DNA of 21,620 bases from the IMG/VR virus record IMGVR_UViG_3300035698_025078, positions 1 through 21,620 of that record; one strand, 5' to 3'. The position numbers were made by a program, and so were the translations under genes. Position 1 is the first letter of the stretch. Each line of letters opens with the position of its first letter. The notes beneath the pieces were generated by a model. The model was not told where the DNA came from. It did not search any database and worked only from the letters and a program-made list of their open reading frames with translations. This stretch comes from a virus. This document shows positions 370 to 16,333 of the stretch, piece by piece.

Positions 370-902
370 TATGCGTACTCGATATAGGTGACGCCGGGGG
401 CGAGTTGAGTGACGTTGAACGCTGCGTTCCACACGCGGCCGATGACGTTCTGCGTGACGGCGTCGGTGTTGTTTCGCACGTATTCGAAATCACTTCCCCA
501 CCCGACCCATGTGGCGATGACGTGCGCGATTGTGGGGTCGCCCGATTCGGCGACGACGGCCTCGACTTGCCATGGGCCGAGGTCGAATTTTTGGCCGTAG
601 AAGAAATCCTTGTAGGGCGCGACGCGGTCGGTCTCGGCGATTGTTTCGTCGCCCAGGAGCACAAGCAAATCGACCTGGCCGCGTTGCGCGATGGGGCCGA
701 TCGCGCCAGCGGCGATTTCCGCGAGGGCGACGGCGTGCGAGGTGCAGAGCGAGTAGCGTGGCTTGTCGCCGGTGAAGAGGCGGCGCGACGCGACGCGGCC
801 CGTGATTTCGACAATGCCGCCGTGCGGGCAGTCGAGCGCGTTGTCGTTTCGGATTTGGCTGATGAAGGGCGCGCGCGGGCTGGCGTTGGTCGTGCGAATC
901 AT
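369..902 (-). CDS. Tail-tip region protein, 177 aa, function unknown
   Basis: The start at 902 overlaps the stop of the 705-residue tail protein (ATGA), and its own stop overlaps the start of the poly-threonine gene, so all three are translationally coupled. The sequence is soluble, mixed alpha/beta, with no signal peptide or membrane segment. It has a cysteine near residue 25 (LDCPHGG) and an aromatic C-terminal half (PYKDFFYGQKFDLGPW). I do not recognise a family. Its place after the tape measure and the large tail-tip protein makes a baseplate or tail-tip component likely. This is inferred from gene order alone. Confidence 0.75.
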   Translation of the reverse strand: MIRTTNASPRAPFISQIRNDNALDCPHGGIVEITGRVASRRLFTGDKPRYSLCTSHAVALAEIAAGAIGPIAQRGQVDLLVLLGDETIAETDRVAPYKDFFYGQKFDLGPWQVEAVVAESGDPTIAHVIATWVGWGSDFEYVRNNTDAVTQNVIGRVWNAAFNVTQLAPGVTYIEYA

Positions 903-3016
903 GACGCGCCTCCATAATTCGCCATGTCGGACTGTTGCGCCTGGAGGTTTTGCTGTTGGGCGATGACGGCTTTGGGGGTGGGCGCGCCGGGCTGATTCAT
1001 GGACGCGACGACGGTCCAGTCAACGCCGAACCATCCGGTCTCGATCGAGGTCGTGCGGTTTTCGAAATCCCATTCCTGGCGGGTGACGATTGTGTTGCAA
1101 GTGACGACGTGCGCGGCCCCCGACGCGAACGTCGTAATGAGTCCGCCGACGGTGGCGATGTTTTGAATTCTGCGGGACGTGATACTGACGCTGGCGCGTT
1201 CGACGCCGTACCATTCGAGGGCGAGCTTGGCGATGATGCGCAGGCGTTTGGCGTCGTTGCGGATGATGGCGCGTCCGCCGACGATGCGTTGGAGCGCGCC
1301 GTCGTCGTCTACGCCGACGACGGTGTCGGCGGCGACGAGCCAGAGCTCGGCGTCGGGGACGCGAATCACCATGTCGCGGCTATATTCGGCGAGGGGGTAT
1401 CCGTCGGCATACTCGCGCACGGCGAGCAGTTCGTCGGTCGGGAGGCAGACGGTGGCGATGATGTCGTCATAATCATAGGTCGGCTCGGCGCCCGTGGGCT
1501 CGGCGGCGTCGGGCCAGTGGTTTTTGGCGAGGACGTGATTGGGGGCGAATCGCGCCGCCAGGGCCATCTCGCGGTCAGAGGCGGTGACGCGCGCGGCCTG
1601 ATGGTCGTCGTCGGCGGCCTTGTCGGCGGGGACGTATTTGCCGTCGCCGGTTTTGAGCAGGATGATGGGTTTTAGAAACTCGGCCTCGGCGTCGGACGGG
1701 GCCGATGAGGGGAAGCCCGCCGTTGCATAATCCACGCTGTCGAGTAGCGGGAGGAAGTTGAGTATCGGGCGGTTCGGGTTCCAATAATTCGCGTCGGTCG
1801 TTGTGGGCGTGCCATTGGCGGAAATGACGGGGTTGACGGCGGATTTGTAGCCGCCGACGCCGTCGCCCGCGCGCCAATCGAACGTGGGGGGGATGCGAAA
1901 TCGCGCATAGACACGCTCGAATTGGTCGCTCTTGCGATAGGCGTCGTTGAGCTTCTCTTGCTGAAACGGGAATTTCGACGCATAGCCCGTGACGTTTTTC
2001 GCGGCGTCCTGAAACGCCGTTTCCTGGGCCGTCGCCCAGGCGGCTTCGAGCGTGCCGTCGGCTTTGGAGACGGTGAAACACGACTTGATGCGCGCGCCCT
2101 CGACGCGCACGACGTCGCAGAGTTGCGAGCGTTCGACACGCGTGACGGCCTCGATGATGTCTTTTGACGTGCCGACGGACAGTGCCGCTTGCTCAGTGTT
2201 CGCGGTGAACGTCATGCTGTCGGTCGTCACGTCCGATGCGAACTGCGACATGACGAATACGGTCAGCGTGTTGGCCGTCTTGTCGAAGCGCAACATCCAC
2301 GAATAGCCGCGTCGCCGATCGAGCAGCGCATCGAGCGCCTTGCGGACTGTCAGGCCGTTGACGTCGAGGACGATGTCGAGTCCGCCGTCAGGGTCGGCGG
2401 GCTCGTCGAAGTCGTCAATCTGGCCGCCGACAAGCCACGTCGGGCCGAGTGGCGCATAGCCCCGTAGGAGATATTCGGCAATGTCCCGATAATTCCATGT
2501 GGCGCCGTCGGCGGAAAAACACCAGTGGGCGGACAACTTAGCCGTCGACCGATTCCCGAGCAGCGTGCCGCGCGCGGGGTGGCGAAGGTTGAACGTCGGG
2601 ACATAGTCAATTTTCGCCGACAGCCCGCCCACGTCGCACCAGGCGCGATAGATGGGCGATCGGTCGAGAAGATGCTCAAGCCCGTAGGCCGTAAATCGCT
2701 GGACGCCGGACGGGTCGTGTACGCCCTTGCCGGCGTGGTCTTCGGTGACGTCCATGATGACGCCCAGCCATTGAATCGTCTCGTCGTCGGACTCGATGAG
2801 AACATAATGGTCTTTGATGTTGATCCGCGAGTAGTTGTCGTAGGTCGTTTCGTCGCGGCGGCGGACGGCGCCGTAGCGATACTCGAGGGTCGCGTGCGAC
2901 GTTTCCGGCGAAACGCAGAGGCACGCCGTATTCGCGTAGAGATAATCGCGCGCCGTCCACGCGTCGTACCAGTTCTCGCGCGTGTAGACGGTGATGTTGA
3001 CGGCTGCAATACTCAT
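899..3016 (-). CDS. Large tail-tip / tail hub-like protein, 705 aa
   Basis: I chose the ATG at 3016 (MSIAAVNITVYTREN) because it overlaps the preceding stop as ATGA; a longer frame upstream would run through the neighbouring gene and has non-phage-like composition. It is the largest tail gene after the tape measure. The N-terminal third (DHYVLIESDDETIQWLGVIM) resembles tail-tip hub or distal-tail-associated proteins that build a ring and then extend. The middle contains a DVNGLTVRKALDALLD stretch and the C-terminal third is beta-rich. There are no peptidase or lysozyme motifs I can see. Gene order (tape measure, 129-aa protein, this gene) fits a baseplate hub. Its role is inferred from position and size, not from a recognised domain. 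Confidence 0.8.
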   Translation of the reverse strand: MSIAAVNITVYTRENWYDAWTARDYLYANTACLCVSPETSHATLEYRYGAVRRRDETTYDNYSRINIKDHYVLIESDDETIQWLGVIMDVTEDHAGKGVHDPSGVQRFTAYGLEHLLDRSPIYRAWCDVGGLSAKIDYVPTFNLRHPARGTLLGNRSTAKLSAHWCFSADGATWNYRDIAEYLLRGYAPLGPTWLVGGQIDDFDEPADPDGGLDIVLDVNGLTVRKALDALLDRRRGYSWMLRFDKTANTLTVFVMSQFASDVTTDSMTFTANTEQAALSVGTSKDIIEAVTRVERSQLCDVVRVEGARIKSCFTVSKADGTLEAAWATAQETAFQDAAKNVTGYASKFPFQQEKLNDAYRKSDQFERVYARFRIPPTFDWRAGDGVGGYKSAVNPVISANGTPTTTDANYWNPNRPILNFLPLLDSVDYATAGFPSSAPSDAEAEFLKPIILLKTGDGKYVPADKAADDDHQAARVTASDREMALAARFAPNHVLAKNHWPDAAEPTGAEPTYDYDDIIATVCLPTDELLAVREYADGYPLAEYSRDMVIRVPDAELWLVAADTVVGVDDDGALQRIVGGRAIIRNDAKRLRIIAKLALEWYGVERASVSITSRRIQNIATVGGLITTFASGAAHVVTCNTIVTRQEWDFENRTTSIETGWFGVDWTVVASMNQPGAPTPKAVIAQQQNLQAQQSDMANYGGAS

Positions 3017-3402
3017 GACGACACCTGGCGAACGGTCCATGTTTGTTTGATGAGGAAATTGCCCCAGCCGGACGAAACGACGAGCGGCGAGTAGCGCGTC
3101 TCGGTCGTCATGACGTTCACGACCTGAACGTTGCTGCGCGTCTGCCCGTCCATGTAGGTAACGGTGAGCGGGACGGCGATTTTGAGGGCGGCCGACGACC
3201 CCTCGTGCGTTTTCATGTCGCCCGCCGAGGAGCATCGCTTGATTGTGTGGAGCGTGCTGAGGGGCGCGCGTTCGCCGATCTGATACGCCTCATAGCCGTC
3301 CACGCCGTCGCGCTCTTCTTCACGAATGTCGCCGGCCATGGGCTGAACGCGACCGTCGAGAATCTGAAATGACAGGGCGCCGATTGTTGGAGTTGTCGCC
3401 AT
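3013..3402 (-). CDS. Tail protein, 129 aa, between tape measure and tail hub (distal-tail-like)
   Basis: The start overlaps the tape measure stop (TAATG at 3404-3400) and its own stop overlaps the next start (ATGA). The N-terminus (TIGALSFQILDGRVQPMAG) and a beta-rich core (ALKIAVPLTVTYMDG) suggest a small beta-sandwich virion protein. In siphophages the gene right after the tape measure commonly encodes the distal tail or tail-tip adaptor, and this one is in that place but shorter than most distal tail proteins. No family was recognised with certainty. Confidence 0.78.
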   Translation of the reverse strand: MATTPTIGALSFQILDGRVQPMAGDIREEERDGVDGYEAYQIGERAPLSTLHTIKRCSSAGDMKTHEGSSAALKIAVPLTVTYMDGQTRSNVQVVNVMTTETRYSPLVVSSGWGNFLIKQTWTVRQVSS

Positions 3403-4733
3403 TATTCGACCGAAGCCTCCCTGCCTGCGCGGACACCACGCGATTTATCCTGGGTGATGACGACGGGCTGCGGCGTTTTGAGGCTGATGCGTTCCGCGGC
3501 TGATTCGCCGCTTTGGCCCGAGAACATCGCCGTCCACGACTCGAAGCGCAGCATCATCTCGGCGAGGGCGCGGGCAAGTTGAGGGGCGTTCGGATCGGCC
3601 TGTGACATGACCTGGTCAATGGCGGCCTGGCGTTTGAGTTCGCCGGGGCCGTAGCGTCTTTCTTCGACGACGGCGCGGGATTCCTTGGCGACGCGGCGCG
3701 CGCGCGTGGCGGCCATTTGCGGGTCGCGCCCGACGAGGCCGAGCTTGACGGCCGTGACGTCTTTGTCGGTGCCTGTCTCGCGGTCGGCTGTAACGAGGCT
3801 GGCTTGCGTTTTGAGGATGTCGGGGCGCAGGTCGAGCAGGCCTTTAAAACCACGCACGGCTTCTTTGCGCCCGAGCAGCTCGAAGAGTTCCTCGTCGGGG
3901 ACGCCGGCGGCTTCGATCTTGGCGACACGGGCGAGGATGCCGGGCGTCGTCATTTTGAGTTTCTTCATCGTCGCGGCCAGAAACGCGTCGATCTGTGTCG
4001 CGGCGATATCGGCGTCTTTCGTGCTCTTGGCCATGTGTGAGAGCGCGGCGAGATATTCCTCGTCCGTGCCTTTTGCCATTTTTACCGACTTCGCGGCGAC
4101 GGTGGCGGCGGGCGCGAATTGTTCGAGTGTGGTTTTGGAAACTTGCGACGCTTTGAAGAGTTTGTTGAGTATGTTGCGTTCGCCGCCGGTTTCTTTTTCG
4201 CCGATGGCCGATTGAAGCGTCTTGACGCCTTCAGCGATAATGGCGGGGTCGTCAACGATGCCCGTGAGTTTCGCGAAGGTCGGGCGCTCCTTTTGCGACA
4301 TGCCGAGCGATTCCATCTTGAAAACTAAATCCGTCGCGCCTGGACGCGTCAGACCCTGCTTACGATAGTGCTCGGCTTCGCCAGTCATGCGCTGTAAATC
4401 TTCGGGGGTGTCGGCGAGTTGAATGAGTTTGCCATAGTCGGTTTCTGTTTCCGTGAGCCCTTCGGCCGCGCGTTTGCGTTCGGTGACGAGTTTGCGGAGC
4501 ATCATCAGCGCGCCGCCGATTGCGCCGCCGAGCGTGGCGTAGTGCCCGACGAGCGACCCGACCGATTTTCCCCAACCGGCATTCGCACGCGACGCGCCAC
4601 GCGCGCCGGCTTTCGACTTTTGCGCCAGGCGCGCGGTTCGGGCTTCGAGCGATTTTTCTTTGTTCTCGATACGCATAAAGCCATTGACGAGCTTGGCGGT
4701 TTGCGCGTCGAATGTCATTGTGACGTTTGCCAT
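3402..4733 (-). CDS. Tape measure protein, short (443 aa)
   Basis: This is the longest mainly helical protein of the tail module and lies where the tape measure is expected, after the tail-assembly gene (its ATG follows that gene's TAA directly) and before the tail-tip genes. The N-terminus (MANVTMTFDAQTAKLVNGFM) is followed by a charged coiled-coil-like segment (about residues 20-45). A hydrophobic glycine/alanine stretch (about residues 56-85, containing LVGHYATLGGAIGGALMML) follows, as in tape measures that enter the host membrane. The rest is Ala/Lys/Glu-rich helix. Tape measure length sets tail length; by the usual rule of about 0.15 nm per residue this gives a tail near 65 nm, short for a siphovirus. 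No lytic domain is seen. Confidence 0.8.
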   Translation of the reverse strand: MANVTMTFDAQTAKLVNGFMRIENKEKSLEARTARLAQKSKAGARGASRANAGWGKSVGSLVGHYATLGGAIGGALMMLRKLVTERKRAAEGLTETETDYGKLIQLADTPEDLQRMTGEAEHYRKQGLTRPGATDLVFKMESLGMSQKERPTFAKLTGIVDDPAIIAEGVKTLQSAIGEKETGGERNILNKLFKASQVSKTTLEQFAPAATVAAKSVKMAKGTDEEYLAALSHMAKSTKDADIAATQIDAFLAATMKKLKMTTPGILARVAKIEAAGVPDEELFELLGRKEAVRGFKGLLDLRPDILKTQASLVTADRETGTDKDVTAVKLGLVGRDPQMAATRARRVAKESRAVVEERRYGPGELKRQAAIDQVMSQADPNAPQLARALAEMMLRFESWTAMFSGQSGESAAERISLKTPQPVVITQDKSRGVRAGREASVE

Positions 4734-5807: not shown

Positions 5808-6668
5808 TTAGGTGACGGTGATTGGGGCGTTGGTTCCGTCGTAGAGACAGTCCACGACGATTTCGGTTTCGGCGGGTTCATTGTGCGACCCGCCGAGTTT
5901 GCCGACGCGCACGAAGTTTTTGTGTGTGGCGAACGTCTTGTGGCCGGTCGCGGCGATCGTGCCGGCGGACTCGCATTTGAGGAGCGAGAGCGACACGAGG
6001 TCGTCGTTGCCTGAGACGCCCATTTGCACGAGCGACGTGGCTTTCTGACTGAGGATGGTGATCTTGGGCGCGTGCTTTTTGATGTAGACGAGCGTGGGAA
6101 ATGCTGTCGTCGGGTCGATTTGCACTTCGACTTCGATGCCGAAATCAATCGTATAGCCCGAGACGGGGCCGACGCTGACCGAGTTGATGGTCACGTCGCC
6201 GGCGCGGAAGAGTTCGTCAATGTCGAGCCCGATCGGGACGGTCTGCGCCGAGGTGGCGGCGAAGGGAATTGTGCCGTCTTCTGCGCCGCCGAAGGCGGTG
6301 TAGGCAAGCGTCGCGCCGGGCTCGTTTTTGACGCTCAGTTGCGTGGGGACGACGATGCCCGCCGTCACATTGATTTTCTCGCCGGTCGTTTTGCGGGTCG
6401 CCGCGTGATCGGCTTCGACCGTGTAGCATTCGAGCGGGTTGGCGGAAATCTCATAGCCGTCAATGCCGAAGAGCGTCATCGCGTTCGCGATTTTCAGCGT
6501 CGTGAACGGGACCTTGGGCCACTGGCGATTGATTGTGGCGAGGGTGTTGAATGCCCGGCTGTCGCCCGAGGCCAGAAACTCCTCGATGCCGGGGTCAATT
6601 TCCTGCTCCTGCATCCCGTCGAGGGTCGTCGTGTTGAGCTTGAGCGCCTGAATGAAATGCAATGACAT
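5808..6668 (-). CDS. Major tail tube protein
   Basis: 286 aa with an AAGGAG ribosome site 7-8 bases before the ATG. The composition is beta-rich with many Thr, Val and Gly, e.g. VSVGPVSGYTIDFGIEVEVQ, typical of tail tube subunits that polymerise into hexameric rings. It starts MSLHFIQALKLNTTT and has an LFGIDGYEISANPLECYTV core. It follows the tail completion and terminator-like genes and precedes the tail-assembly and tape measure genes, the normal position for the tube protein. Absence of a sheath gene next to it points to a non-contractile tail. No single diagnostic motif exists, so the call rests on length, composition and order. Confidence 0.78.
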   Translation of the reverse strand: MSLHFIQALKLNTTTLDGMQEQEIDPGIEEFLASGDSRAFNTLATINRQWPKVPFTTLKIANAMTLFGIDGYEISANPLECYTVEADHAATRKTTGEKINVTAGIVVPTQLSVKNEPGATLAYTAFGGAEDGTIPFAATSAQTVPIGLDIDELFRAGDVTINSVSVGPVSGYTIDFGIEVEVQIDPTTAFPTLVYIKKHAPKITILSQKATSLVQMGVSGNDDLVSLSLLKCESAGTIAATGHKTFATHKNFVRVGKLGGSHNEPAETEIVVDCLYDGTNAPITVT

Positions 6669-6680
6669 TGTTACGGCTCC

Positions 6681-7148
6681 TTATGCAAAGGTTCTGCGTC
6701 GGGATTTGGCCAGTAAATTGATTCGGCGTGCGACGCCGGTGTTGACGCGTTTGGCGAGGCGCATGAGTTCCATGGGGTTTGTCGCGGTGAGTTCGGCGCG
6801 ATAGTCGTGAGCGCCGGACCCGAAGTTGATCGCGCTGGACACGCTGATGGTCACGCGCGCCGACTTTGGGGTGGACCGCACGGCGCCTTGGCGCAATGCT
6901 TTTTCGCGTGTGTCGCCGGAAAAGACCAGTGGCTTCGCGTGGCCCTTGCGGCTCACGTAATACCTCATGCGGGGCGTAAAGACGCCGCCGTATCGCTGAT
7001 AGGCCGATTCCGCGAAATGGTATTTGAGATACGTCCGATGCCAGAACACGCCGGCGGCGGCGAGTTCGTGGCGCGCGGCCTCGTTGACGTCGCGTTTCTT
7101 CGCGGCGGCGGGTCCTTGAAATTGAATTGTCGGATGCAGTTCGATCAT
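6681..7148 (-). CDS. Tail completion / minor tail protein (HK97 gp10- or gpZ-like)
   Basis: 155 aa, with a GAAGG-type ribosome site upstream of the ATG. It has the pattern of small basic tail completion proteins: an N-terminal helix, then WHRTYLKYHFAESAYQRYGG, a Ser/Gly-containing PLVFSGDTREKALRQG segment, and a basic C-terminus (RRINLLAKSRRRTFA). This layout (aromatic-rich segment, then PLV-SG-R) is what I associate with gp10/gpZ-type neck proteins between head and tail. Position just before the tube gene agrees. Exact family not proven. Confidence 0.68.
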   Translation of the reverse strand: MIELHPTIQFQGPAAAKKRDVNEAARHELAAAGVFWHRTYLKYHFAESAYQRYGGVFTPRMRYYVSRKGHAKPLVFSGDTREKALRQGAVRSTPKSARVTISVSSAINFGSGAHDYRAELTATNPMELMRLAKRVNTGVARRINLLAKSRRRTFA

Positions 7149-7153
7149 TGGTT

Positions 7154-7843
7154 TTAGCCTTCGTATGAGACGAGGATTTGAGCGAGAAACGCGTCGCCTT
7201 CGTCCTTTCGGTATTCGAGTTTTACACGGCCCATGTGAATGACCTTGACGCCGGAGATTGCGAGATACGTCGCCTGGCCCGAGAGGTCGAGAATGTCGTC
7301 CACGACGGCGCCGACTTGGTTAGCGAACCACGCCCATGCGTCGCCGACGGTGTTGGCGTAGGCGGCGGGAACGTCGGCTTCGAATGAGAGCAGGACGGAT
7401 CCGGACGCGAGATATGCGCCCGTGCCGATGGCGCCTTTTTCCGCGTTGTCGCCAATGTCTACGACGGCGAAGGGACGACTGTGACGCACGGCGCTGTTGT
7501 CGGGTAGGGCGTACATGGCGCGCGCCGTCCATACGACTGTGCCGTCGGTGACGGTGCCGCCCGCGACGGTCGGCCAGGTCGGTTCGGCTGTGCCGGACGT
7601 GCCGGCGGTCGTGCATTCGTAGACAAAACTTGCGCCGGCGGCGACGCGCGCAAACTCGCGCAGGGCGAAGGCGGTGGACGCGGCCCAGGGCTTGGGCGGG
7701 TTGATGCCATAATAATGAATATACGGCAGGGCGGCGGCGGCGCTGGCGGCTCCGACCCATGTGCGAAAATTCGTCGAGCCCGCGACGCTGTTTCGCAGAT
7801 AGACGAGCGGCAGATTGATGGGGCCTGTGGGCGTCACTGACAT
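7154..7843 (-). CDS. Tail terminator-like protein with an inserted carbohydrate-binding-like module
   Basis: 229 aa, overlapping the methyltransferase stop by 10 bases. The N-terminal 45 residues (LPLVYLRNSVAGSTNFRTWV) and the part from about residue 122 onward (SRPFAVVDIGDN, then a DAWAWFANQVGAVVDDILDL helix) resemble terminator/neck proteins that cap the tail. Between them, residues 52-107 (W-AST...YECTTAGTSGTAEPTWP...VTDGTVVWT) match a module I know from phage tail fibres and adhesins, here inserted into the loop. This would put a binding module on the neck. The terminator call rests on order and partial resemblance; the module is more confident. Confidence 0.6.
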   Translation of the reverse strand: MSVTPTGPINLPLVYLRNSVAGSTNFRTWVGAASAAAALPYIHYYGINPPKPWAASTAFALREFARVAAGASFVYECTTAGTSGTAEPTWPTVAGGTVTDGTVVWTARAMYALPDNSAVRHSRPFAVVDIGDNAEKGAIGTGAYLASGSVLLSFEADVPAAYANTVGDAWAWFANQVGAVVDDILDLSGQATYLAISGVKVIHMGRVKLEYRKDEGDAFLAQILVSYEG

Positions 7844-8379
7844 GGTTTCAATCCTATGAATTCGGCGACGGTCGGTTGCGGCCCGAAATAGACCTCGTCG
7901 AAATAGCGCGTCATGGTTTCGTGAAATTCCTCGACGCTGAAAAATGGCGACGTGTGCAATTCATTCGGCGAGCCCTGGGGCTCGATGGGGGCCTGAATAT
8001 AGATCGCGCCGCCGGGGACGAGGACGCGGACGAACTCGGCCAGGGCCGCATCACGGCGCGCAAAATGCTCGATGGCGTGACGCGTGAAAATAAAATCCAT
8101 GGACTCGCAGCTATGCGGGACGCGTTCGGCCTGGGCCGTGGCGACGGGCAGGCCGCGCTCGCGTGCGCGATGTGCGAATTCGGCGACGGGCTCAATGCCG
8201 AAACACGCGGCGCGAGGCCAGCGCGCCTTGAGCGCGGCGAGGCCCGCACCCGAGTTACAGCCGACGTCGAGCAGCACGCCCGAGACCGGGCCGAGCTCCA
8301 TCTCAATCCGTTCGGCGGCGGCCATGTAGCCCGCGACCATCGCATCGCCCTGGTCGCCTACGCGTGATTGGTCAGCCAT
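7834..8379 (-). CDS. Class I SAM-dependent methyltransferase, 181 aa
   Basis: Residues 37-45 (LDVGCNSGAG) form the glycine-rich SAM-binding motif I, E63 in FGIEP is the acidic residue that binds the ribose, and HAIEHFARRD (101-110) and VPGGAIYIQAP (121-131) are the usual motifs of the Methyltransf_11/25 group. Such enzymes often methylate sugars or small metabolites, and the two glycosyltransferases directly upstream, overlapping by 8 bases, point to a glycan substrate. There is no DPPY/NPPY motif, so it is not a DNA adenine enzyme. The substrate is inference. Confidence 0.88.
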   Translation of the reverse strand: MADQSRVGDQGDAMVAGYMAAAERIEMELGPVSGVLLDVGCNSGAGLAALKARWPRAACFGIEPVAEFAHRARERGLPVATAQAERVPHSCESMDFIFTRHAIEHFARRDAALAEFVRVLVPGGAIYIQAPIEPQGSPNELHTSPFFSVEEFHETMTRYFDEVYFGPQPTVAEFIGLKPCQ

Positions 8380-9577
8380 GGAGCAGCTCCTTATATTCGG
8401 CGATTGCGGCCATCATCTTGTTGGCGTTGTGATGGTGGAATTTCTGATAGGCCCATACGCGCGTTGCGTTGACGCCGCCGATGGGCTTGTGGGTTTCGGC
8501 GGTCAGGCGCGCGCGGCGAATTGCGTTGGCGAGAACGATGGGGTCGGCTTCGGGGATGATGAGGCCGTAGTCGTCGGTGACGGTGCCGGACGGTTCGATT
8601 TGTTCGGCGGTGGGCGCGGCGACAAAGTCAAAACTGAACCCCTTGTAGGTCACGAGCGGTATCCCGCAGAGTTGCGATTCGACGAGCGGCTGGCCGAGGT
8701 TTTCGGCCTTGGACGGCGAGCAATAAACATCGAGGCAGCGATAGAACATCGGCATCGCTTCGCGCGGAAAACGTGCGCCGATGAAGTGAACGCGGTCGCC
8801 AAGACCGAGTTTCTTCGCGAGGTTTTTCGAGTCTTGAAGCACGTCCGCCTCGGACTTGCCTTCGCGCAGCCCGTCGGGGCTTTTGGCGCGGACCTTGGAG
8901 AGCAGTTGGGCGGGTGTGTGGAGGATGACATAGTGCAGGTCGGGCATTTCGGGCGCGAGGAGCGCGAGCGCCTTGAGCACGTCGTCGCCGCCCTTGCTGT
9001 TTGGCGTGTTGCCGATGGTGCCGAGACAAAACGCGTCGCTCGGGATGCCGTATTTGTATTTTAAGCGCGCGGTGACGCGTTGGTCATAACTGGACATGGC
9101 GGGGCAAAACAGGTCGGCGTCAAAGACGCTCGGCACGAGTCGCATTTTGTCGGCGGGGACGCCGTGGCGTTTGTAGATTTCGATTGAGTAGGGGCAGATG
9201 ACGCCGATAAATTTCCGCGTGCAGATCAAATCGATCACGCGGTTTTCCGAGGCGCGGCGCACGGCAGGGTCGGCGTCGACGCAGCTGAAGACTGAGCCGT
9301 TCGACCCGTACCACCAAAGGCAGGGGATTTTGCGCGCGTCGCAGGCGTCGGCGACGAGTTGTGCGTGGGAGTTGGCGATCATCAGTTGATGCCATGTGCC
9401 GGCGAGGACGACGGCGTCGACATCGGCGCCGTTTTTAATCATTGTCCACGCGCCTGCGGTCGGGTCCATGGGGATGATCTCGTGGCCGAGGCGCATGAGT
9501 GCTTCGCCCATTTCGTGACCGCGTAATGCGCCGCCGACGCCATAGTGATCTTGGGCGTGAATGCCTAGAATTTTCAT
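8372..9577 (-). CDS. Glycosyltransferase family 4 (GT-B fold)
   Basis: 401 aa starting MKILGIHAQDHYGVGGALRG, with an N-terminal Rossmann-like half. The C-terminal half carries the family 4 nucleotide-sugar site: LGTIGNTPNSKGGDDVLKAL (about 185-204), FIGARFPREAMPMFYRCLDV (about 265-284) and YCSPSKAENLGQPLVESQLC (285-304). E292 and E300 form the EX7E motif that contacts the donor sugar phosphate. It transfers a sugar from an NDP-sugar with retention of configuration. ATGA overlap with the upstream glycosyltransferase means coupled translation. No membrane segment. Donor and acceptor are unknown; modification of a virion protein or of a host surface glycan are both possible. Confidence 0.93.
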   Translation of the reverse strand: MKILGIHAQDHYGVGGALRGHEMGEALMRLGHEIIPMDPTAGAWTMIKNGADVDAVVLAGTWHQLMIANSHAQLVADACDARKIPCLWWYGSNGSVFSCVDADPAVRRASENRVIDLICTRKFIGVICPYSIEIYKRHGVPADKMRLVPSVFDADLFCPAMSSYDQRVTARLKYKYGIPSDAFCLGTIGNTPNSKGGDDVLKALALLAPEMPDLHYVILHTPAQLLSKVRAKSPDGLREGKSEADVLQDSKNLAKKLGLGDRVHFIGARFPREAMPMFYRCLDVYCSPSKAENLGQPLVESQLCGIPLVTYKGFSFDFVAAPTAEQIEPSGTVTDDYGLIIPEADPIVLANAIRRARLTAETHKPIGGVNATRVWAYQKFHHHNANKMMAAIAEYKELLHG

Positions 9578-10812
9578 GTGTCTTCGTCCTCCTTGAGTTG
9601 TGCGAGTAGCGCGGTGGCGATGAGGGCGATGCCCATTGTGAGCAGGTCGCGCGACGAGGTTTTTTTAGCGGCGCGCGTCGGCTCGGGCACGGGTTCGGGT
9701 GCGGTGGCCTTGACGGGCGGCGCGGATTTATAGAGCGCGTCATAGGCCCCGGCGACGGCGCACGGGCTGATTTTGAGTTGCATGGCAAGGGCGGCGGGTT
9801 GCGTGTCGATCGCGCCGCGCGCGACGCTGGCGAGGCTGAGCGCGATGCTGTCGTCGGTGCCGTCGGTGCGAATGACGGCGTCGCCATAGCCGTCGAACAT
9901 GGGCGAGTTATTGACGATGACGGGCGTGCCCGACATGACGCTGAGTGCGACGGTTCCGGATGAACTTTGCAGGGTCCATTGATGGTTGAGGACGATGGCG
10001 TGCGCGGATTGGAGTTGTTTATAGAGATCGTCCTCGGTGAGAAATTCCTCGACGATTTCGATGGCGTGCCCGAAGACGCGCAGTTGTTCGAGTTCGGCGA
10101 TGTTCTGGCGATGCTCGCCGGTGATGGGTTTTCCGATGACGCGATAGTGCGCGTTGGGGTAGCCCATTGCGCGGAGTTTATTGATGGCGCGGGCGGTGAC
10201 GATCTGGCCCTTGCCTTTGCCGGGGAAACCCCACGAGACGACAAGCGGGCCGGGGTCGCTTTTTTGCCCGGTCGTCTCACGGGGTTTTGGGGCGGCCAGG
10301 GGGATGAGTTTGATCGGGTTTTTCAGGACGATGTGATAGTCGTCGGCGTATTTTGTGAGGGCTTCGATCATGCCGGAGGTTCCGGCGACGATGAAATCTA
10401 TCTCGCGGAGCATGGCTTTGTAGGAGCGGACAAAGACCTCGCGCATGTCGACGCCGTGGACGGTGGCGACGGTGACGACGTCATGCTCGCGCGCCCATTT
10501 ACCGAATTCGAGCATGGACGAGTAGGGGAAAAAGCCGGGGTCAAATTGTAGGTGGATGATGCCCGCGTTGAGTTTTTCAGCTTCGGCGGCGATGTCTTTG
10601 AGCGCGGTTTTACGCGAGCGTTTCCAGACGCGTCGCACGTCATATTCCGGCGTCTCGTTCGGCGTTTCGTACCAGGGCGGCGGGTCTTCGGCGAGGATGA
10701 TTTGCTGAACGGTTTCGGGCAGTTCGCCGAGCCAGTAGCTCAGATGCTTGGCGACGCCGCAGGGGACGCCCCAGGGGGTTGCGTGCGCGATGATGTTTCT
10801 GTCTGGCCGCAT
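9574..10812 (-). CDS. Glycosyltransferase (GT4-like) with degenerate EX7E and hydrophobic C-terminal tail
   Basis: 412 aa from the ATG at 10812, which has a TAGGA ribosome site and follows the stop at 10821; an in-frame ATG 29 codons upstream lies inside the previous gene. The GT-B layout is clear: N-terminal HATPWGVPCGVAKHLSYW, then LVVSWGFPGKGKGQIVTA (about 190-207) and VMSGTPVIVNNSPMF (292-306). At the site where family 4 has EX7E, serines stand at 283 and 291, so the donor-phosphate glutamates are missing. A Pro/Ala-rich linker (365-382) leads to a hydrophobic helix (LLTMGIALIATALLAQL, 390-406) that may anchor it in the membrane. ATGA overlap joins it to the next enzyme. Confidence 0.88.
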   Translation of the reverse strand: MRPDRNIIAHATPWGVPCGVAKHLSYWLGELPETVQQIILAEDPPPWYETPNETPEYDVRRVWKRSRKTALKDIAAEAEKLNAGIIHLQFDPGFFPYSSMLEFGKWAREHDVVTVATVHGVDMREVFVRSYKAMLREIDFIVAGTSGMIEALTKYADDYHIVLKNPIKLIPLAAPKPRETTGQKSDPGPLVVSWGFPGKGKGQIVTARAINKLRAMGYPNAHYRVIGKPITGEHRQNIAELEQLRVFGHAIEIVEEFLTEDDLYKQLQSAHAIVLNHQWTLQSSSGTVALSVMSGTPVIVNNSPMFDGYGDAVIRTDGTDDSIALSLASVARGAIDTQPAALAMQLKISPCAVAGAYDALYKSAPPVKATAPEPVPEPTRAAKKTSSRDLLTMGIALIATALLAQLKEDEDT

Positions 10813-10820
10813 GTGTTTTC

Positions 10821-11153
10821 CTAAGTGGCGTAGAGGGTGACGGTGGCGTCGCCGGCGCCGCACGCACCGGCATTCGTGATGAAGAGATTTGTGACGCACA
10901 ACACGGTTTCGGGTTTTTTGTACTTATTGGCCGCGCCGGCGGCGACGGCGATGGCGCCATTCGTTGTCGCGTTGAATTTGATGGTGATGTCGGCGTCGGT
11001 CTCGACCTCGATGTAGCGCGCCTGGCCGAGGCTTGCGCGGCGTCCGAGGGCTTTGAGCAGGGCGGACAGGTCAACTTCCTGGTCCGTGGTGCCGCCGTAG
11101 ACGGTGAACTGCGCGTAGTAATACTGCTGGTTGCGTGAATCCTTTGTGAACAT
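10821..11153 (-). CDS. Small virion-like protein, 110 aa, function unknown
   Basis: An AAGGA ribosome site precedes the ATG at 11153. The protein opens MFTKDSRNQQYYYAQFTVYG and has a beta-rich, Ala/Gly/Thr-rich second half (IKFNATTNGAIAVAAG) with two cysteines (VLCVTNL and GACGAGD). That composition fits a small capsid decoration or tail-surface protein. It follows the membrane-anchored coiled-coil gene and precedes the glycosyltransferases. No family recognised; virion role inferred from composition and position. Confidence 0.7.
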   Translation of the reverse strand: MFTKDSRNQQYYYAQFTVYGGTTDQEVDLSALLKALGRRASLGQARYIEVETDADITIKFNATTNGAIAVAAGAANKYKKPETVLCVTNLFITNAGACGAGDATVTLYAT

Positions 11154-11155
11154 AA

Positions 11156-11488
11156 TTACTGTCCTTTCTCGCGGACGCGGGAGAGTTGGAAGAGAATGGC
11201 GTCGAGCTTTTTGTTGACGATTTTCGACTGGGCCTCGATGGCCTTCAGGCGTTCGTCAACGCGGCCGATGGCGTTTTCGTTTGCGCGGGATCGGTCGTCT
11301 ATTTTTTCAATCGTCGCGGACTGGACGGTGATGGCGGCGGCGACGTCTTGGCGCGAACCGCTGGCGAGCGAGATGAGCCAGCCCATGAGTGCGCTGACGA
11401 GGATGAAGGACGCGAGGACGACGCCGCGGGTGTTTCGTCCGAAATCGCAACCGGGTCGCAGTTTTACCGTAGGGGTGCCTTCGCCCAT
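11156..11488 (-). CDS. Membrane-anchored coiled-coil protein, 110 aa
   Basis: The ATG at 11488 has a GAGAGG ribosome site and overlaps the end of the head-tail joining gene; the longer frame to 11599 would run inside that gene with shadow-like Arg/Pro composition. It has a basic/polar N-terminal 22 residues, one membrane segment (GVVLASFILVSALMGWLISL, about 22-41), then a long helix with heptad pattern (ATIEKIDDRSRANENAIGRV) to the C-terminus. The topology (membrane anchor plus coiled coil) recalls holin-like or XhlA-type lysis accessory proteins, which are common in phages, but no lysin lies nearby. A role in lysis or membrane attachment is inference. Confidence 0.72.
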   Translation of the reverse strand: MGEGTPTVKLRPGCDFGRNTRGVVLASFILVSALMGWLISLASGSRQDVAAAITVQSATIEKIDDRSRANENAIGRVDERLKAIEAQSKIVNKKLDAILFQLSRVREKGQ

Positions 11489-11490
11489 GG

Positions 11491-11847
11491 TTATGCCTCT
11501 CGATAATTGCCGGGGATTGTTTCGGTCGCTTCGGCGCGGGCGACACTGAGCGCCCACTTGACGCCGTTGAGGTTTCGCGGTTTTTTTGTGACGGTCCATG
11601 TTTCGTTGGTGGCGTGGCGAGTGAGCGTGGCCTCGCGTTCGGGGTTGGCGATGTCTGAGGTGCGGACGTTGACGACGGCCTCTTGCGTGTCGTGTGCGCC
11701 GTCATCGCGGACGTCGGGCTCGGGGGCGCGTGTGACCCACTCGGCGTCGATGATGAGGGCGGACCCGATTTTCGGCGTGTAGGTTGTGCGTTCGCCGAAG
11801 AGTCGAACGTCGAGTGCTGAATTCATATGGCCTGCAAAGTCAAACAT
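11491..11847 (-). CDS. Head-tail joining protein (lambda gpFII / Phage_attach-like)
   Basis: 118 aa. The start MFDFAGHMNSALDVRLFGER, then TYTPKIGSALIIDAEW, follows the typical FGE-x-Y-P opening of FII-type joining proteins that complete the head so the tail can attach. A VRTSDIANPEREATL strand and a short beta-rich C-terminus agree with the small beta-barrel of that family. It lies two genes after the major capsid protein, as in lambda-like order. A GAGAG ribosome-site-like sequence precedes the ATG. Similarity is by pattern only. Confidence 0.72.
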   Translation of the reverse strand: MFDFAGHMNSALDVRLFGERTTYTPKIGSALIIDAEWVTRAPEPDVRDDGAHDTQEAVVNVRTSDIANPEREATLTRHATNETWTVTKKPRNLNGVKWALSVARAEATETIPGNYREA

Positions 11848-11934: not shown

Positions 11935-12339
11935 TTAGAACAATGCTTTGAAGATGACGGACGAGGCGGAGGCGTCGGCACCGCCGGCGGACAGAGTGGC
12001 CTGGGCGCGGACATAGCGATAGACGTCCACGGGCAGGCGGAAGTTTTTCGTCGCGGCGGCGGCTCCGGCGCCGGCGGCGCCGGTCTGGGTGAGGATCGTC
12101 TCGGCGATGGTGACGAAGGAGCTGTTGTCGAGCGAGTGCTGGATGTTGTACTTCATCGTCTCGCCGTTCGGGAGCGGCGTGGTGCCGAGCGCGGGCGCGA
12201 CGACACAGACTTCCATGTCGGCGAGGAAGTCGCCCTTGGCGCTGTTTTTCAGATCGAGCGCGACGGTTTGGACGCTGCCGGCGGCGGCGGGCAGGGCGAT
12301 GGTTTTCGAGAGGCTTGCGTCTTCGACTTTGTAACCCAT
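11935..12339 (-). CDS. Candidate capsid cement/decoration protein, 134 aa
   Basis: It follows the major capsid gene with a strong AAGGAG ribosome site. The sequence is Ala/Gly/Thr/Ser-rich and beta-rich (SLSKTIALPAAAGSVQTVAL near the N-terminus, YRYVRAQATLSAGGADASAS near the C-terminus). This resembles Bbp16-type capsid cement proteins, which trimerise on the capsid surface and stabilise it after expansion. Position right after the capsid protein supports this. The name is a pattern match without alignment. Confidence 0.68.
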   Translation of the reverse strand: MGYKVEDASLSKTIALPAAAGSVQTVALDLKNSAKGDFLADMEVCVVAPALGTTPLPNGETMKYNIQHSLDNSSFVTIAETILTQTGAAGAGAAAATKNFRLPVDVYRYVRAQATLSAGGADASASSVIFKALF

Positions 12340-12400: not shown

Positions 12401-13336
12401 TTATGCCGCGGTTTCGGTGTTGAGGATGCTGGTGGTCGGCTCGATCGGCACGCCGAACGCTTCCTCGGGGAAGGGCGCGGGGGCGCCGGTCGGGCTCGTG
12501 GCGGTGCGGCTGTTCTGCAACTGCTTTTGCAGGCGCGGCGTCATGTAGAAGACGTCGGGCTTGAAGTGCAGGTTCGTGGTGAATCGTTCGAGGAGGCTGG
12601 CGAGCAGATCGTCGGTGAGGAGTTGTGTGGACGCATCGACGGCGGCCTCGACGTTCTTGATTCGCCCGATGCTGTACTGGTTTCCGACCTGGACGCCGAG
12701 CCAACCCTGGAGCGATTGCGCGAGGGCCCACATGTTGCCGGTGCTGGCGGCGACGAGTTGCTCGATAATATCGCCCTCGTCGAAGCACCCGTCTTTGCCG
12801 AAGACCCAGCGGGTGTTTTTGACACCCCACTTGACGGCCCAGACGCTGGAGGTGTCGGCGCCGGATCCGGAGGCGTTGACTTCCATCGCCGAGACGACCG
12901 AGTCGACGAGCCCGGCATGGCCGTAGGCCGCGCCGGTGACGCCGGACGCGGTGCCATAATAGAACTGCTTGCAGACTGAATCGATGGCGCCCTCCATGTG
13001 GGATTCGGCCTCTTCGGCGCAGACGGCCTCGGGGCCGTTTTCGCTGGCGTTCGCGACGGCCTTGTCGATGCTCCACGACGCGTCGGTAATGAAGCATTCG
13101 ACGAGGCGATTTTCGACGGTCTGCTTGGTGGTTTCGACGCCGTTGTTGGCCTGGCGGAAGCCGACGTCGGGGAGGGCGGTGCGGACACGGGTTTTGTACT
13201 GCGTGCCCTTGATGGTGCGGGCGTCGCCCTTGCGGAATTCGGGGTACGGCTTGCTGGCCTCGTCAATGAGGCCGACCACGATATCGCTGTTGTTGCGGAT
13301 GGCGATGTCGAGGAGGGTGGTTCTGTCTTCTGCCAT
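12401..13336 (-). CDS. Major capsid protein (HK97-type fold)
   Basis: 311 aa with an AGGAG ribosome site. The N-terminus (MAEDRTTLLDIAIRNNSDIV) is followed by KGDARTIKGTQYKTRVRTAL, VENRLVECFITDASWSIDKA, WAVKWGVKNTRWVFG and C-terminal DVFYMTPRLQKQLQNSRTAT. I recognise this as a capsid family common in environmental siphophages, with conserved RTIKG and TRVRT blocks and a C-terminal LQNSRTAT stretch. It follows the protease/scaffold gene, as lambda E follows C/Nu3. The protein forms the icosahedral shell. No separate delta domain is obvious; scaffolding is supplied by the nested product upstream. Confidence 0.92.
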   Translation of the reverse strand: MAEDRTTLLDIAIRNNSDIVVGLIDEASKPYPEFRKGDARTIKGTQYKTRVRTALPDVGFRQANNGVETTKQTVENRLVECFITDASWSIDKAVANASENGPEAVCAEEAESHMEGAIDSVCKQFYYGTASGVTGAAYGHAGLVDSVVSAMEVNASGSGADTSSVWAVKWGVKNTRWVFGKDGCFDEGDIIEQLVAASTGNMWALAQSLQGWLGVQVGNQYSIGRIKNVEAAVDASTQLLTDDLLASLLERFTTNLHFKPDVFYMTPRLQKQLQNSRTATSPTGAPAPFPEEAFGVPIEPTTSILNTETAA

Positions 13337-13376: not shown

Positions 13377-13913
13377 CTATTTGGACTTGTTGCGCTTGGC
13401 GGCCATGGCGGCGGCGATCTTGGCGCGGTTCGCGCCGAGGGCCGGGGTGAGTTCCTTTTCGGCCTTGGCGCGGGCCTCCTCTTCGGGCGAGACGCTTTGG
13501 GCCTGGGCGGGTTCGGTTTCGCCGCCGAGTTTTTCGACGACGGCGCGCAGGCGTTCGTTTTCGGCTTTGAGCGATGCGTGATGCGCCTCGATGGTTTCGG
13601 GGCGGGCCATGCCTTTGGCGAAGGCGTTGACGGCAAACTCGCTGCCGACGATTTCGGCCAGTTCGGCCAGTTCGGCGCGGGGGTTTGTTTGCGCCTGGGC
13701 TTCAGGCGCGGCGTCGGGCGCGGCGTCGGGCTCGGGGGAGGTTTTGTTCTCTTCGGGCTTGATGACGGGCTCAGCGACGGTGTTGTCGGTTTCCGGTTTC
13801 GACGCGGGTGCGGCGGCGGGGACGACTGTTTTGTCTTCGACGGGGGCGGCGACGGGCGCTTCCTCCGGCGTTGCCGTGGCTTTGTCGCCACGGAGTTTCG
13901 AGAGCAGGCTCAT
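13377..13913 (-). CDS. Nested scaffold protein made from an internal start (Nu3-like), 178 aa
   Basis: Inside the protease gene, in the same frame, an ATG at 13913 (residue 319 of the long product) is preceded by AAGGAG at 13925-13920 with 6 bases between. This is as strong a ribosome site as that of any gene here and has no purpose for the long protein. The product begins MSLLSKLRGDKATATPEE, is Pro/Ala/Glu-rich to about residue 80, then helical with a LKAENERLRAVVEKLGG coiled coil and a Lys-rich end. This matches a scaffolding protein that guides capsid assembly. The arrangement mirrors lambda C/Nu3. Confidence 0.85.
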   Translation of the reverse strand: MSLLSKLRGDKATATPEEAPVAAPVEDKTVVPAAAPASKPETDNTVAEPVIKPEENKTSPEPDAAPDAAPEAQAQTNPRAELAELAEIVGSEFAVNAFAKGMARPETIEAHHASLKAENERLRAVVEKLGGETEPAQAQSVSPEEEARAKAEKELTPALGANRAKIAAAMAAKRNKSK

Positions 13914-14867
13914 AGAATTCTCCTTAGTTGCCTGAGCCTCGGCCAGAGTTTCTGTCCGGCCTTTGGTTTCGCCGGACGCAAGTGTCCGGCCTGTGTTTGA
14001 CGCGTTTGCCTGAGCCTTTGCGAGTGCGGCGTCGGCGTTGAGGACGCCGTTGATGAGTCCGAGTTTTGTGGCTTCGGGGGCGAGCCATGCCTGTCCTGTG
14101 GCGAGGGCGGCGACGGTTTCCGGGGTGAGTCCGCGCCCGCGCGCGACGGTTTCGACGAAGATTGAGGCAAGGTCGTCAATTCGTTTCTGGCTGGGTTTGA
14201 TGTCGTCATCGGTGATGGCGACGCCGTCTTCGCCGACGCCCTTGTAGGGGCCGGAGCGAAGGCGAATAACGCGGACACCGGCTTCGGCGTAGGCTTCGGA
14301 CGTGTCTTCGCAAATTGTGTAGACGCCGATGGAACCGACGACGGCGGTTTGATTAGCGGTGACGATGTCGGCTTGTGAGGCAACCCAATAGGCGGCGGAT
14401 GCACCCATGTCTTCGATGTGGGCGTAGATAGGCTTGTGGCCTCGGGCGTTGTAGACGGCGTCGGCGAGTTCCTGAATGCCCCACATTTCCCCGCCGGGGC
14501 TTTCGATGGCGAGGAGGATGGCGCTGACCGCGCTGTCGCTAAGAGCGTTTTGAATGGTGTCTTGTGTTTTAGCGGAGGAGGTGGCTTCGAGGCACATAAG
14601 GTCCATCCACACGGGAACGTCTTTGAGCATGAGCCCTGTGATGGGGATGACGGCGACGCCGTTGAGAATGTCGTAGCCGGGGCCGTCATGGGCGACGGGT
14701 TTGTTGGTGAGCGACATGAGGTCTTTGGCTTGGACGTTGACGCCGGTGAACGCGGCCATGTGGCGGCCCGAGAGGGCGTCTATGATTTCGTCAAGATATG
14801 GGCCGTTGACGGCCCACTGGCGGGTGCGGACGCGGCTGAGGATTGTGTTGCGGGCTTTCGGGTCCAT
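13377..14867 (-). CDS. Prohead protease (S49, SppA/lambda gpC-like) with C-terminal scaffold
   Basis: 496 aa; its ATG overlaps the portal stop (TAATG), with a GAGGAG ribosome site. Residues 70-280 form the S49 domain: VAVIPITGLM (71-80), IESPGGEMWG (121-130), MGASAAYWVASQ (154-165) with nucleophile S157, VVGSIGVYT (177-185) and SGPYKG with general base K209. The 52-residue spacing of Ser and Lys is that of SppA and lambda gpC. From residue 319 the chain becomes Pro/Ala/Glu-rich and then helical, a scaffold domain. The enzyme matures the prohead by cleaving scaffold and itself. A nested start makes the scaffold separately, as lambda C makes Nu3. Confidence 0.93.
   Translation of the reverse strand: MDPKARNTILSRVRTRQWAVNGPYLDEIIDALSGRHMAAFTGVNVQAKDLMSLTNKPVAHDGPGYDILNGVAVIPITGLMLKDVPVWMDLMCLEATSSAKTQDTIQNALSDSAVSAILLAIESPGGEMWGIQELADAVYNARGHKPIYAHIEDMGASAAYWVASQADIVTANQTAVVGSIGVYTICEDTSEAYAEAGVRVIRLRSGPYKGVGEDGVAITDDDIKPSQKRIDDLASIFVETVARGRGLTPETVAALATGQAWLAPEATKLGLINGVLNADAALAKAQANASNTGRTLASGETKGRTETLAEAQATKENSMSLLSKLRGDKATATPEEAPVAAPVEDKTVVPAAAPASKPETDNTVAEPVIKPEENKTSPEPDAAPDAAPEAQAQTNPRAELAELAEIVGSEFAVNAFAKGMARPETIEAHHASLKAENERLRAVVEKLGGETEPAQAQSVSPEEEARAKAEKELTPALGANRAKIAAAMAAKRNKSK
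13920..13925 (-). promoter_or_regulatory. Internal ribosome binding site for the nested scaffold
   Basis: AAGGAG on the minus strand, 6 bases upstream of an in-frame ATG inside the protease gene. It decides the start of the short product. Confidence 0.85.
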
Positions 14868-16333
14868 TATTCTTTCTCCTCAGCGAGAAGGGCTTTGGCG
14901 AGTTCGGGGTCGGTGATTGGGGACCAGGCGAGTGAGACGTTTTTCTCTTCGGCGTAGACTTTGGCTTCGGCGATTTCGTCGACGATGTCGAAGAAGTTTG
15001 TGCCTCGGCTTTTACAGATGCGTTGGGGTGAGTTGAAGCCGCCGGCGACTTCTTCGTGGGCGGCTTTGACTTCTTTGAGCATGTCGTGCCAGGGCGAGCC
15101 GGCGGGCTGCCATTCGTATTTGATGTTGCTGAGTTGCAGGGCGGCGGGGAGTCTGAGGGCGCTGTCGGCGATGCCGAGGGCGATGCGCCAGTCGGCCCAT
15201 GTGTTGAGGACGTTCTGGTTGGCGCGGATTTTGGGGGCGGAGGATTTCTCGTATTGGATGGTGGTGGAGCGGTGGACGCTGTAGGAGCCATGGAGGGCGT
15301 CGAAGAATATCCAGGGGATGTCGAGTGCGAGGAGGCTGATTTTTATCATGAGTTCGCTGTAAAGGCGGGATTCGTTTGAGGGGGTTTTTGATTCGAAGAG
15401 TTCGACGTTTTCGCCTTCTTCGAGTTCGATGAGTGAGGCGACGCCGGGTTTGGTGAAGTGCTCTTGGACTTCGTGGGTGAGGTTGCCGGCGTCGTCATCG
15501 GATTCTTCGCCGGTGGTTGTGGTTTGGCTGATGGGGGCGAATGCGCCGGTGCCGTCGGCGCGTTTGCGTGTGATGGCGGCGCCGAAGAGGGCGTGGATTT
15601 TCATTTTGATGAGTTCGTAGTCGAAGCCTTCGTAGAGGTCCTGGATGGAGTTGAGGGCGGTGGTGAGGGGGCTGATGCCGCGATATTGGTCGAAGCGGGT
15701 GAAGTAGCCGCGGGGGATGATGTTGGCGGCGGGTGCGACCTTGTCGAAGAGGAGGCGGGTGTTTTCTCGTTTGCAGATGCAGTAGTTGAGTGCGCGTCCG
15801 GCTTTGTTGGTTTGGATGCCGTGTGTCCATGTGCCGGTGTCGTAGGCGTCGGGTGGGTCGCTGGGTTTGGCGACGCGGTCGCCTTCGATGCCTTGGATGT
15901 GTCCGGTGCGCATTTTCATCCAGAAGGCGTCGCCGCCGATGACGGCGCGGTTTTCGAGGAGGCGGATCATTTTGGGGAGGTCGTGGCGTGCGGCGATGTC
16001 GAAGTTGTCGGGTCGCGATTGCTGGGCGATGAAGGTTTCGAGTTCGTTGTTGAAGTTTTTGTCGGGGGTGGCGGCTTGGAAGGTGAAGGAGGCGACATAG
16101 TCGAGGTGTTTGCGGACCATCCAGGCGAGGAGGCTGATGTTGCGTTCCTGGTCGCGGGCGGTGGCGAATAGCTTTTTGCGGTCTGATGCGGTGAGTTCTT
16201 TGTCTTCTGAGCGGATGATTGAGCGTGGGGCGGTGCGTTTTTTCTTGTCTTGGACGGCGTCGAAGCTGGCGACGGGGACGCGTGCGGGTGCGATGTTGCG
16301 GGTTCGACGGCTTCTGTGGAATTTTTTGGACAT
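14867..16333 (-). CDS. Portal protein (lambda gpB type)
   Basis: 488 aa. The N-terminus is basic (MSKKFHRSRRTRNIAPARVP), then SDRKKLFATARDQERNISLL, YVASFTFQAATPDK, and IGGDAFWMKMRTGHIQGIEG, a pattern diagnostic of the lambda-type portal (Phage_portal_2). PRGYFTRFDQYRGISPLTTA and the C-terminal WADWRIALGIADSALRLPAA agree. The portal is the dodecameric vertex through which DNA enters and leaves the head; it docks the terminase. Gene order portal, S49 protease, capsid matches lambda B, C, E. Its start follows the preceding TAG at once; there is no strong ribosome site, so it may be translated by coupling. Confidence 0.93.
   Translation of the reverse strand: MSKKFHRSRRTRNIAPARVPVASFDAVQDKKKRTAPRSIIRSEDKELTASDRKKLFATARDQERNISLLAWMVRKHLDYVASFTFQAATPDKNFNNELETFIAQQSRPDNFDIAARHDLPKMIRLLENRAVIGGDAFWMKMRTGHIQGIEGDRVAKPSDPPDAYDTGTWTHGIQTNKAGRALNYCICKRENTRLLFDKVAPAANIIPRGYFTRFDQYRGISPLTTALNSIQDLYEGFDYELIKMKIHALFGAAITRKRADGTGAFAPISQTTTTGEESDDDAGNLTHEVQEHFTKPGVASLIELEEGENVELFESKTPSNESRLYSELMIKISLLALDIPWIFFDALHGSYSVHRSTTIQYEKSSAPKIRANQNVLNTWADWRIALGIADSALRLPAALQLSNIKYEWQPAGSPWHDMLKEVKAAHEEVAGGFNSPQRICKSRGTNFFDIVDEIAEAKVYAEEKNVSLAWSPITDPELAKALLAEEKE

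Follow-up and report, generated by a model that had tools for sequence, protein, structure and literature searches.

Two glycosyltransferases and a methyltransferase in the late operon of a probable planctomycete phage: a candidate system for glycosylating threonine-rich virion proteins

What would a tailed phage do with two glycosyltransferases and a methyltransferase lying among the genes of its own head and tail? The question is raised by IMGVR_UViG_3300035698_025078, a 21,620-base virus record of IMG/VR which is probably a fragment; it was analysed at its full length and is called the window here. Every gene recognised in it is on the minus strand. The three enzyme genes, named GTa, GTb and MT, form a cassette, and a tail protein of the same window carries a long run of threonines:

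9574-10812, minus strand: GTa, a GT4-like glycosyltransferase (weak matches to PF00534 and PF13439; homology to a WbdA domain)
8372-9577, minus strand: GTb, a GT4 glycosyltransferase (PF00534, E=2.8e-15; EX7E motif)
7834-8379, minus strand: MT, a class I S-adenosylmethionine (SAM)-dependent methyltransferase (PF08241, E=4.7e-16)
1-363, minus strand: tail protein cut by the contig edge, a candidate O-glycan acceptor from its sequence and codons, with a 28-threonine linker at 175-258

The cassette is very probably a late-expressed set of glycan-modifying enzymes, and it is slightly more likely than not that it acts on a virion protein; that the poly-Thr run is the acceptor is a more tentative proposal, somewhat less likely than not. 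The complete reading, a late-expressed module which modifies a virion protein with a Thr-rich segment as the likely acceptor, could equally prove right or wrong. Virion self-glycosylation is nevertheless the best reading, because a pairing between glycosyltransferases of the GT2 family and Thr-rich proteins in other phages looks functional.

This pairing was studied with an alignment of the GT2 proteins of two members of the phage family (G012 and the provirus G202). It retrieved 292 relatives from 2.9 million viral contigs, and the best 80 loci (L254-L333) were analysed. A protein was called Thr-rich when it had a 30-residue stretch with at least 60% Ser/Thr and no more than six residue types. 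The query loci had already been seen with Thr-rich neighbours, and the guards were deduplication based on the glycosyltransferase, controls within each locus and clustering of the upstream proteins. The calls of open reading frames (ORFs) are mechanical, and some neighbour assignments will be wrong. A Ser/Thr-rich ORF is present in 52 of the 80 GT2 loci, compared to 3 of 123 control loci of the capsid/portal family (p=4e-24). Residue pairs lacking both Ser and Thr reach this richness in two of the 80 loci at the most, so what is enriched is threonine (and serine).

The Thr-rich gene has a preferred position. When near-identical glycosyltransferases are removed, which leaves 50 loci, the gene immediately upstream on the same strand is Thr-rich in 23 of 47 cases. 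The proportion is 7/41 at position -2, 2/42 at position -3, 0/37 at position -4 and 2/109 at downstream positions of the same strand, while the opposite-strand neighbours are never Thr-rich (0/91). The adjacent upstream position thus differs strongly from the other same-strand positions taken together (11/229, p=7.6e-13). The Thr runs of these upstream genes reach 36 residues (e.g., L260:3268-5982 and L310:3619-5958). After masking of low complexity, the 23 upstream proteins fall into 20 clusters which have no detectable similarity to each other, whereas their glycosyltransferases belong to a single family; because of this, the pairing looks functional. A substrate relation would give such a pattern, which is not easily explained by common descent from a single gene pair. 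The GT2 domain has no match among the cultured phages of the INPHARED collection. The initial annotation had proposed to look for co-occurrence of poly-Thr proteins and glycosyltransferases in related phages, and for one GT2 family the outcome is strongly positive. In the window itself, the Thr-rich tail protein is truncated by the contig end and the gene downstream of it falls outside the contig; no GT2 was recognised in the part covered.

The placement of the cassette in the window is also as first described, with two glycosyltransferases and a SAM methyltransferase inside a lambda-type head-tail operon, downstream of the head genes and upstream of the neck, tube-like and tape-measure genes. 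GTa and GTb overlap by 4 nt (ATGA) and GTb and MT by 8 nt; a further overlap of 10 nt joins MT to the neck gene. All the starts in the cassette are ATG, each with an AGGA-like ribosome site upstream. The enzyme genes thus run in the same direction as the virion genes and are linked to them by translational overlap; this, and the lack of any recognised lysogeny gene in the window, bears out the late placement that had been claimed. The other features of the window are the following:

19467-21569, minus strand: terminase large subunit (TerL), head gene
14867-16333, minus strand: lambda-type portal, head gene
13377-14867, minus strand: S49 protease/scaffold, head gene
12401-13336, minus strand: GP7-type capsid protein, head gene
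11935-12339, minus strand: Bbp16-like protein, head region
11491-11847, minus strand: head-tail attachment protein, upstream border of the insert (PF05354, E=2.3e-7; 45% identical to L003:8653-9009)
11156-11488, minus strand: 110-residue ORF within the insert, with an N-terminal hydrophobic segment and a coiled-coil-like tail (weak match to the Rz-like spanin PHROG 89, E=7e-4)
10821-11153, minus strand: 110-residue ORF of unassigned function within the 3.65-kb insert (ORF call)
7154-7843, minus strand: neck/tail-completion protein, downstream border of the insert (46% identical to L003:9009-9719)
6681-7148, minus strand: ORF after the neck gene (ORF call)
5808-6668, minus strand: tube-like protein, named from its position
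3402-4733, minus strand: tape-measure candidate, tail region
Beyond the tape-measure candidate, minus strand: three further tail ORFs, including the ORF 899-3016

The closest syntenic relative, L003/L050, has the same gene order from the portal through ORF 899-3016, and its capsid protein, portal and tube-like protein are 51%, 56% and 52% identical to those of the window. In L003, position 9009 marks both the end of the attachment gene and the ATG of the neck gene; the five genes found at 7843-11491 in the window are absent. The cassette is therefore part of an insert in the window, since the abutting attachment and neck genes of L003 leave no room for five genes. The ORF 10821-11153 has no family match, and no homologue in the related loci.

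GTb is a clear glycosyltransferase. It scores 56.7 bits against PF00534 (cut-off 26.4), its C-terminal domain has the EX7E motif ENLGQPLVE (E292-E300), and it matches the glycosyltransferase family PHROG 2170. Among solved structures, those closest to it in sequence are of GT4 enzymes, WaaG among them; the match to an MshA model is weak. GTa is more distant: it scores 18.3 bits against PF00534 (E=0.0018), under the curated cut-off of 26.4, and its match to PF13439 is weak as well. About 320 of its residues align to the C-terminal domain of a WbdA-type glycosyltransferase from a plasmid-borne O8-type O-antigen locus, and it also aligns with similar multi-domain proteins of Azospirillum and of a planctomycete (E=5e-20 for the latter). 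The tblastn matches are glycosyltransferases of O-antigen or exopolysaccharide (EPS) loci with 21-26% identity, and in phmmer residues 8-327 align to three O-antigen/EPS-type glycosyltransferases. GTa has SSSGTVALS at the position of the EX7E motif. By its sequence, it is thus a diverged homologue of the WbdA polymannose-synthase domain, whose catalysis is uncertain. AlphaFold2, run on GTa without an alignment, gave a model with a mean confidence (pLDDT) of 40, which was not used.

MT is a generic class I enzyme; its match to PF08241 (Methyltransf_11) covers residues 37-128, the SAM-binding domain. Of 10 loci with distant relatives of MT in viral contigs, 7 have a GT2 or GT4 gene nearby. L066 has a 46% identical MT elsewhere among its head genes, flanked by the Bbp16-like gene and the head gene after it; no glycosyltransferase is visible there, so that we can only infer a link of MT to sugar.

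Late glycosyltransferases recur in the phage family, in various forms. The late region encodes a GT2-like and a methyltransferase domain in a single ORF in G002/G025, GT2 and a methyltransferase domain in G012, GT2 followed by a methyltransferase in G035, and GT2 in G049. Among the proviruses, G202 has GT2, G422 has GT2 and Galactosyl_T, G474 has a GT2-GT4 fusion, and G490 has GT4 and a sulfotransferase-like gene. Thr- or Ser-rich tail proteins adjoin the glycosyltransferase region in G002, G012, G202 and G422. In G009, two GT2 genes are in the head operon, between the terminase and the portal; there (L148:10851-11879, 9301-9777, 8975-9328), the capsid protein has a Thr-rich C-terminus ending with TTTTTTTAATTTTTTAATTTTTTTAG, the protein after it starts with the poly-Thr segment MPDTTTTTTTTTG, and a small neighbouring protein has the Thr-rich C-terminus GATTTTTTGA.

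Within this family, defined by the major capsid protein and the portal, the association between Thr-rich tail proteins and glycosyltransferases gives a Fisher p of 0.011 when truncated records are excluded and of 0.08 when these are counted as lacking a glycosyltransferase; it is weaker than 0.011 if the zinc-ribbon/GT-A-like ORFs of proviruses G125 and G295 are counted as glycosyltransferases. The table was compiled manually, with the pattern already in view, and this test was later replaced by the GT2-centred one. Taken alone, the association within the family is no more than suggestive.

Other features of these tail ends can be mentioned. In the ORFs of G125 and G295 (L238:13335-14627 and L242:13347-14654), which have no Pfam match, a Cys-rich N-terminus resembling a zinc ribbon leads into a GT-A-like domain that contains an IDHD motif; the glycosyltransferase region of L131/L132 is preceded by a similar Cys-rich segment. 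A tail-end sulfotransferase-like gene (weak PF03567) and phosphoribosyltransferase-like proteins (weak PF00156) are seen at L228:4478-5023, L230:6803-7870 and L181:13138-14715. Long poly-Ser C-termini occur on two different head/tail-region proteins in each of the related phages L022 (8469-9053, 9898-10566) and L026 (6754-7314, 8164-8838), whose contigs end before the tail end.

A scan of genomes with the capsid protein revealed a provirus-like locus in a metagenome-assembled genome of Planctomycetaceae, and portal homologues are present in 16 of 392 Planctomycetota genomes (nine at E<1e-60), several inside multi-megabase contigs. Since capsid and portal homologues lie in such genomes, the family infects Planctomycetota and can integrate into them. 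From these proviruses, the host of the window phage is probably also a member of this phylum.

Several observations weigh against virion self-glycosylation. Late glycosyltransferases occur without a Thr-rich tail protein in G490, G474, G035 and G049. The glycosyltransferases of the window, GT4 and WbdA-like, belong to other classes than GT2, and no Thr-rich partner of theirs was seen elsewhere. Neither GTa nor GTb had a relative in viral contigs by single-sequence pattern scans, and 100 related virus records contained no match to PF00534. In L066, there is no glycosyltransferase between MT and the end of the contig, about 270 bp later. The activity of GTa is uncertain because EX7E is absent. 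Lastly, the nearest relatives of GTa and GTb act in polysaccharide synthesis, and surface glycans would suit them equally well as substrates.

It is for this last reason that modification of the host surface is the main rival, which we consider somewhat unlikely. The cassette would alter the glycans of the planctomycete envelope, late in infection or in a lysogen, and thereby block superinfection or keep the progeny off debris. GTa resembles a WbdA-type polymannose synthase domain and GTb resembles WaaG-type enzymes, methyltransferases adjoin WbdA-like proteins in O-antigen loci, and the distant phage relatives of MT are in clusters with several glycosyltransferases. However, the cassette has no flippase-like or polytopic membrane partner and lies inside a structural operon with overlapping starts, and the association of the GT2 family in related phages is with Thr-rich virion proteins. 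The lack of the cassette in the closest relative, the missing EX7E motif of GTa and the independent movement of MT would also be expected of passenger genes (morons) or decayed enzymes from a bacterial polysaccharide locus, with no role specific to the virion. This explanation is less probable still, given that the three ORFs are intact, overlapping and similar in composition to their neighbours, and that insertion of glycosyltransferases into the late region recurs in the family, with different enzyme types. As to glycosylation of modified bases of the phage genome, many kinds of phage glycosyltransferases are capable of it (PMC12619734 and its reference 46), but the genes in question belong to the virion operon, not to a set of replication genes, and no base-modification gene (hydroxymethylase, thymidylate synthase-like, kinase) was recognised in the window, which makes this proposal highly improbable.

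As we envisage virion self-glycosylation, a planctomycete phage would first have acquired the module, inserted where its head-attachment gene is followed by the neck gene. While virions assemble, nucleotide sugars of the host would serve GTb and GTa as donors for the glycosylation of a virion protein, much as the GT2 enzymes are presumed to act on their partners, and MT would cap the transferred sugar by O-methylation. A Thr-rich stretch would be the likely acceptor, for example the linker of the tail protein, which consists of exactly 28 Thr codons (18 ACG and 10 ACC), in line with the initial annotation. That annotation had proposed glycosylation of the virion by the cassette: the operon placement and the GT2 co-occurrence support this, while the action of GT4/WbdA-like enzymes on poly-Thr, or on any virion protein, goes beyond what was shown. 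On a broader scale, the chances seem balanced that many uncultured tailed phages, including that of the window, build mucin-like O-glycosylated tails, in which Ser/Thr tracts on unrelated virion proteins are served by a dedicated phage glycosyltransferase encoded nearby, most clearly a GT2 from the gene that follows; genes for methyl- or sulfotransferases would accompany it in some cases. If so, a Thr-rich virion protein next to a glycosyltransferase would be a genomic signature from which virion glycosylation could be predicted across uncultured phages, the poly-Thr linkers of phage tails would have a rationale, and these phages would be a source of compact protein O-glycosyltransferases.

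Some features of the window are independent of this proposal. The neck protein (7154-7843) had been labelled tail terminator-like, which is not proven: its sole strong match, to the head-decoration family PHROG 20658, is confined to residues 48-109. Residues ~54-123 form a YECTTAGTSGTAEPTWP-like module (PHROG head decoration) which is seemingly missing from the L138 homologue, and the matches to the homologues in L138 and L141 skip the module or stop ahead of it; this suggests an inserted surface domain. The Thr codon ACG is common in the tail genes (30 of 57 in ORF 899-3016) and absent from the portal (0/30) and TerL (0/53), and the GC skew increases rightwards along the window (about 0.15 to 0.45), as if its two halves differed in history, which may be the case.

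How does the cassette compare with known systems? The serotype-conversion gtr cassettes of temperate phages also consist of phage-borne glycosyltransferases, and comprise the flippase GtrA, GtrB and a polytopic Gtr, by the attachment site. Those of the window are in a late structural position with no adjoining integrase, and the insert has neither family matches to GtrA, GtrB or Gtr membrane proteins nor such neighbours. The O8-type polymannose O-antigen locus of E. coli encodes the WbdA-type domain to which GTa is homologous, and there too a methyltransferase-domain protein adjoins the WbdA-type protein; in contrast, GTa is a single-domain protein without EX7E, situated among virion genes, with no ABC exporter (wzm/wzt) or sugar-donor genes.

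The closest precedent is that of mycobacteriophages. Published work on Che8, Corndog and Myrna reports phage glycosyltransferases which glycosylate the C-termini of capsid and tail-tube proteins (Freeman et al., 2023; PMC12363180, PMC12619734, PMC11256854). Virion glycosylation itself is thus already known, in a few mycobacteriophages, while we found no paper in the open-licence literature which describes Thr-rich phage proteins paired with adjacent glycosyltransferases. No mycobacteriophage match to GTa or GTb came up in a tblastn search of 50,697 phage records. In both systems, the glycosyltransferases are encoded by the phage, although decoration of its own structural proteins is only predicted for the window phage, and the candidate acceptors of G009, the Thr-rich C-termini of its capsid protein and of the small neighbour, recall the C-terminal glycans of the mycobacteriophage capsid and tail-tube proteins. 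The window cassette differs in that it includes a methyltransferase, that its candidate acceptor is a long poly-Thr linker and that its host would be a member of the Planctomycetota; it adds a version composed of GT4, GT4-like and methyltransferase enzymes, in a phage family of this phylum.

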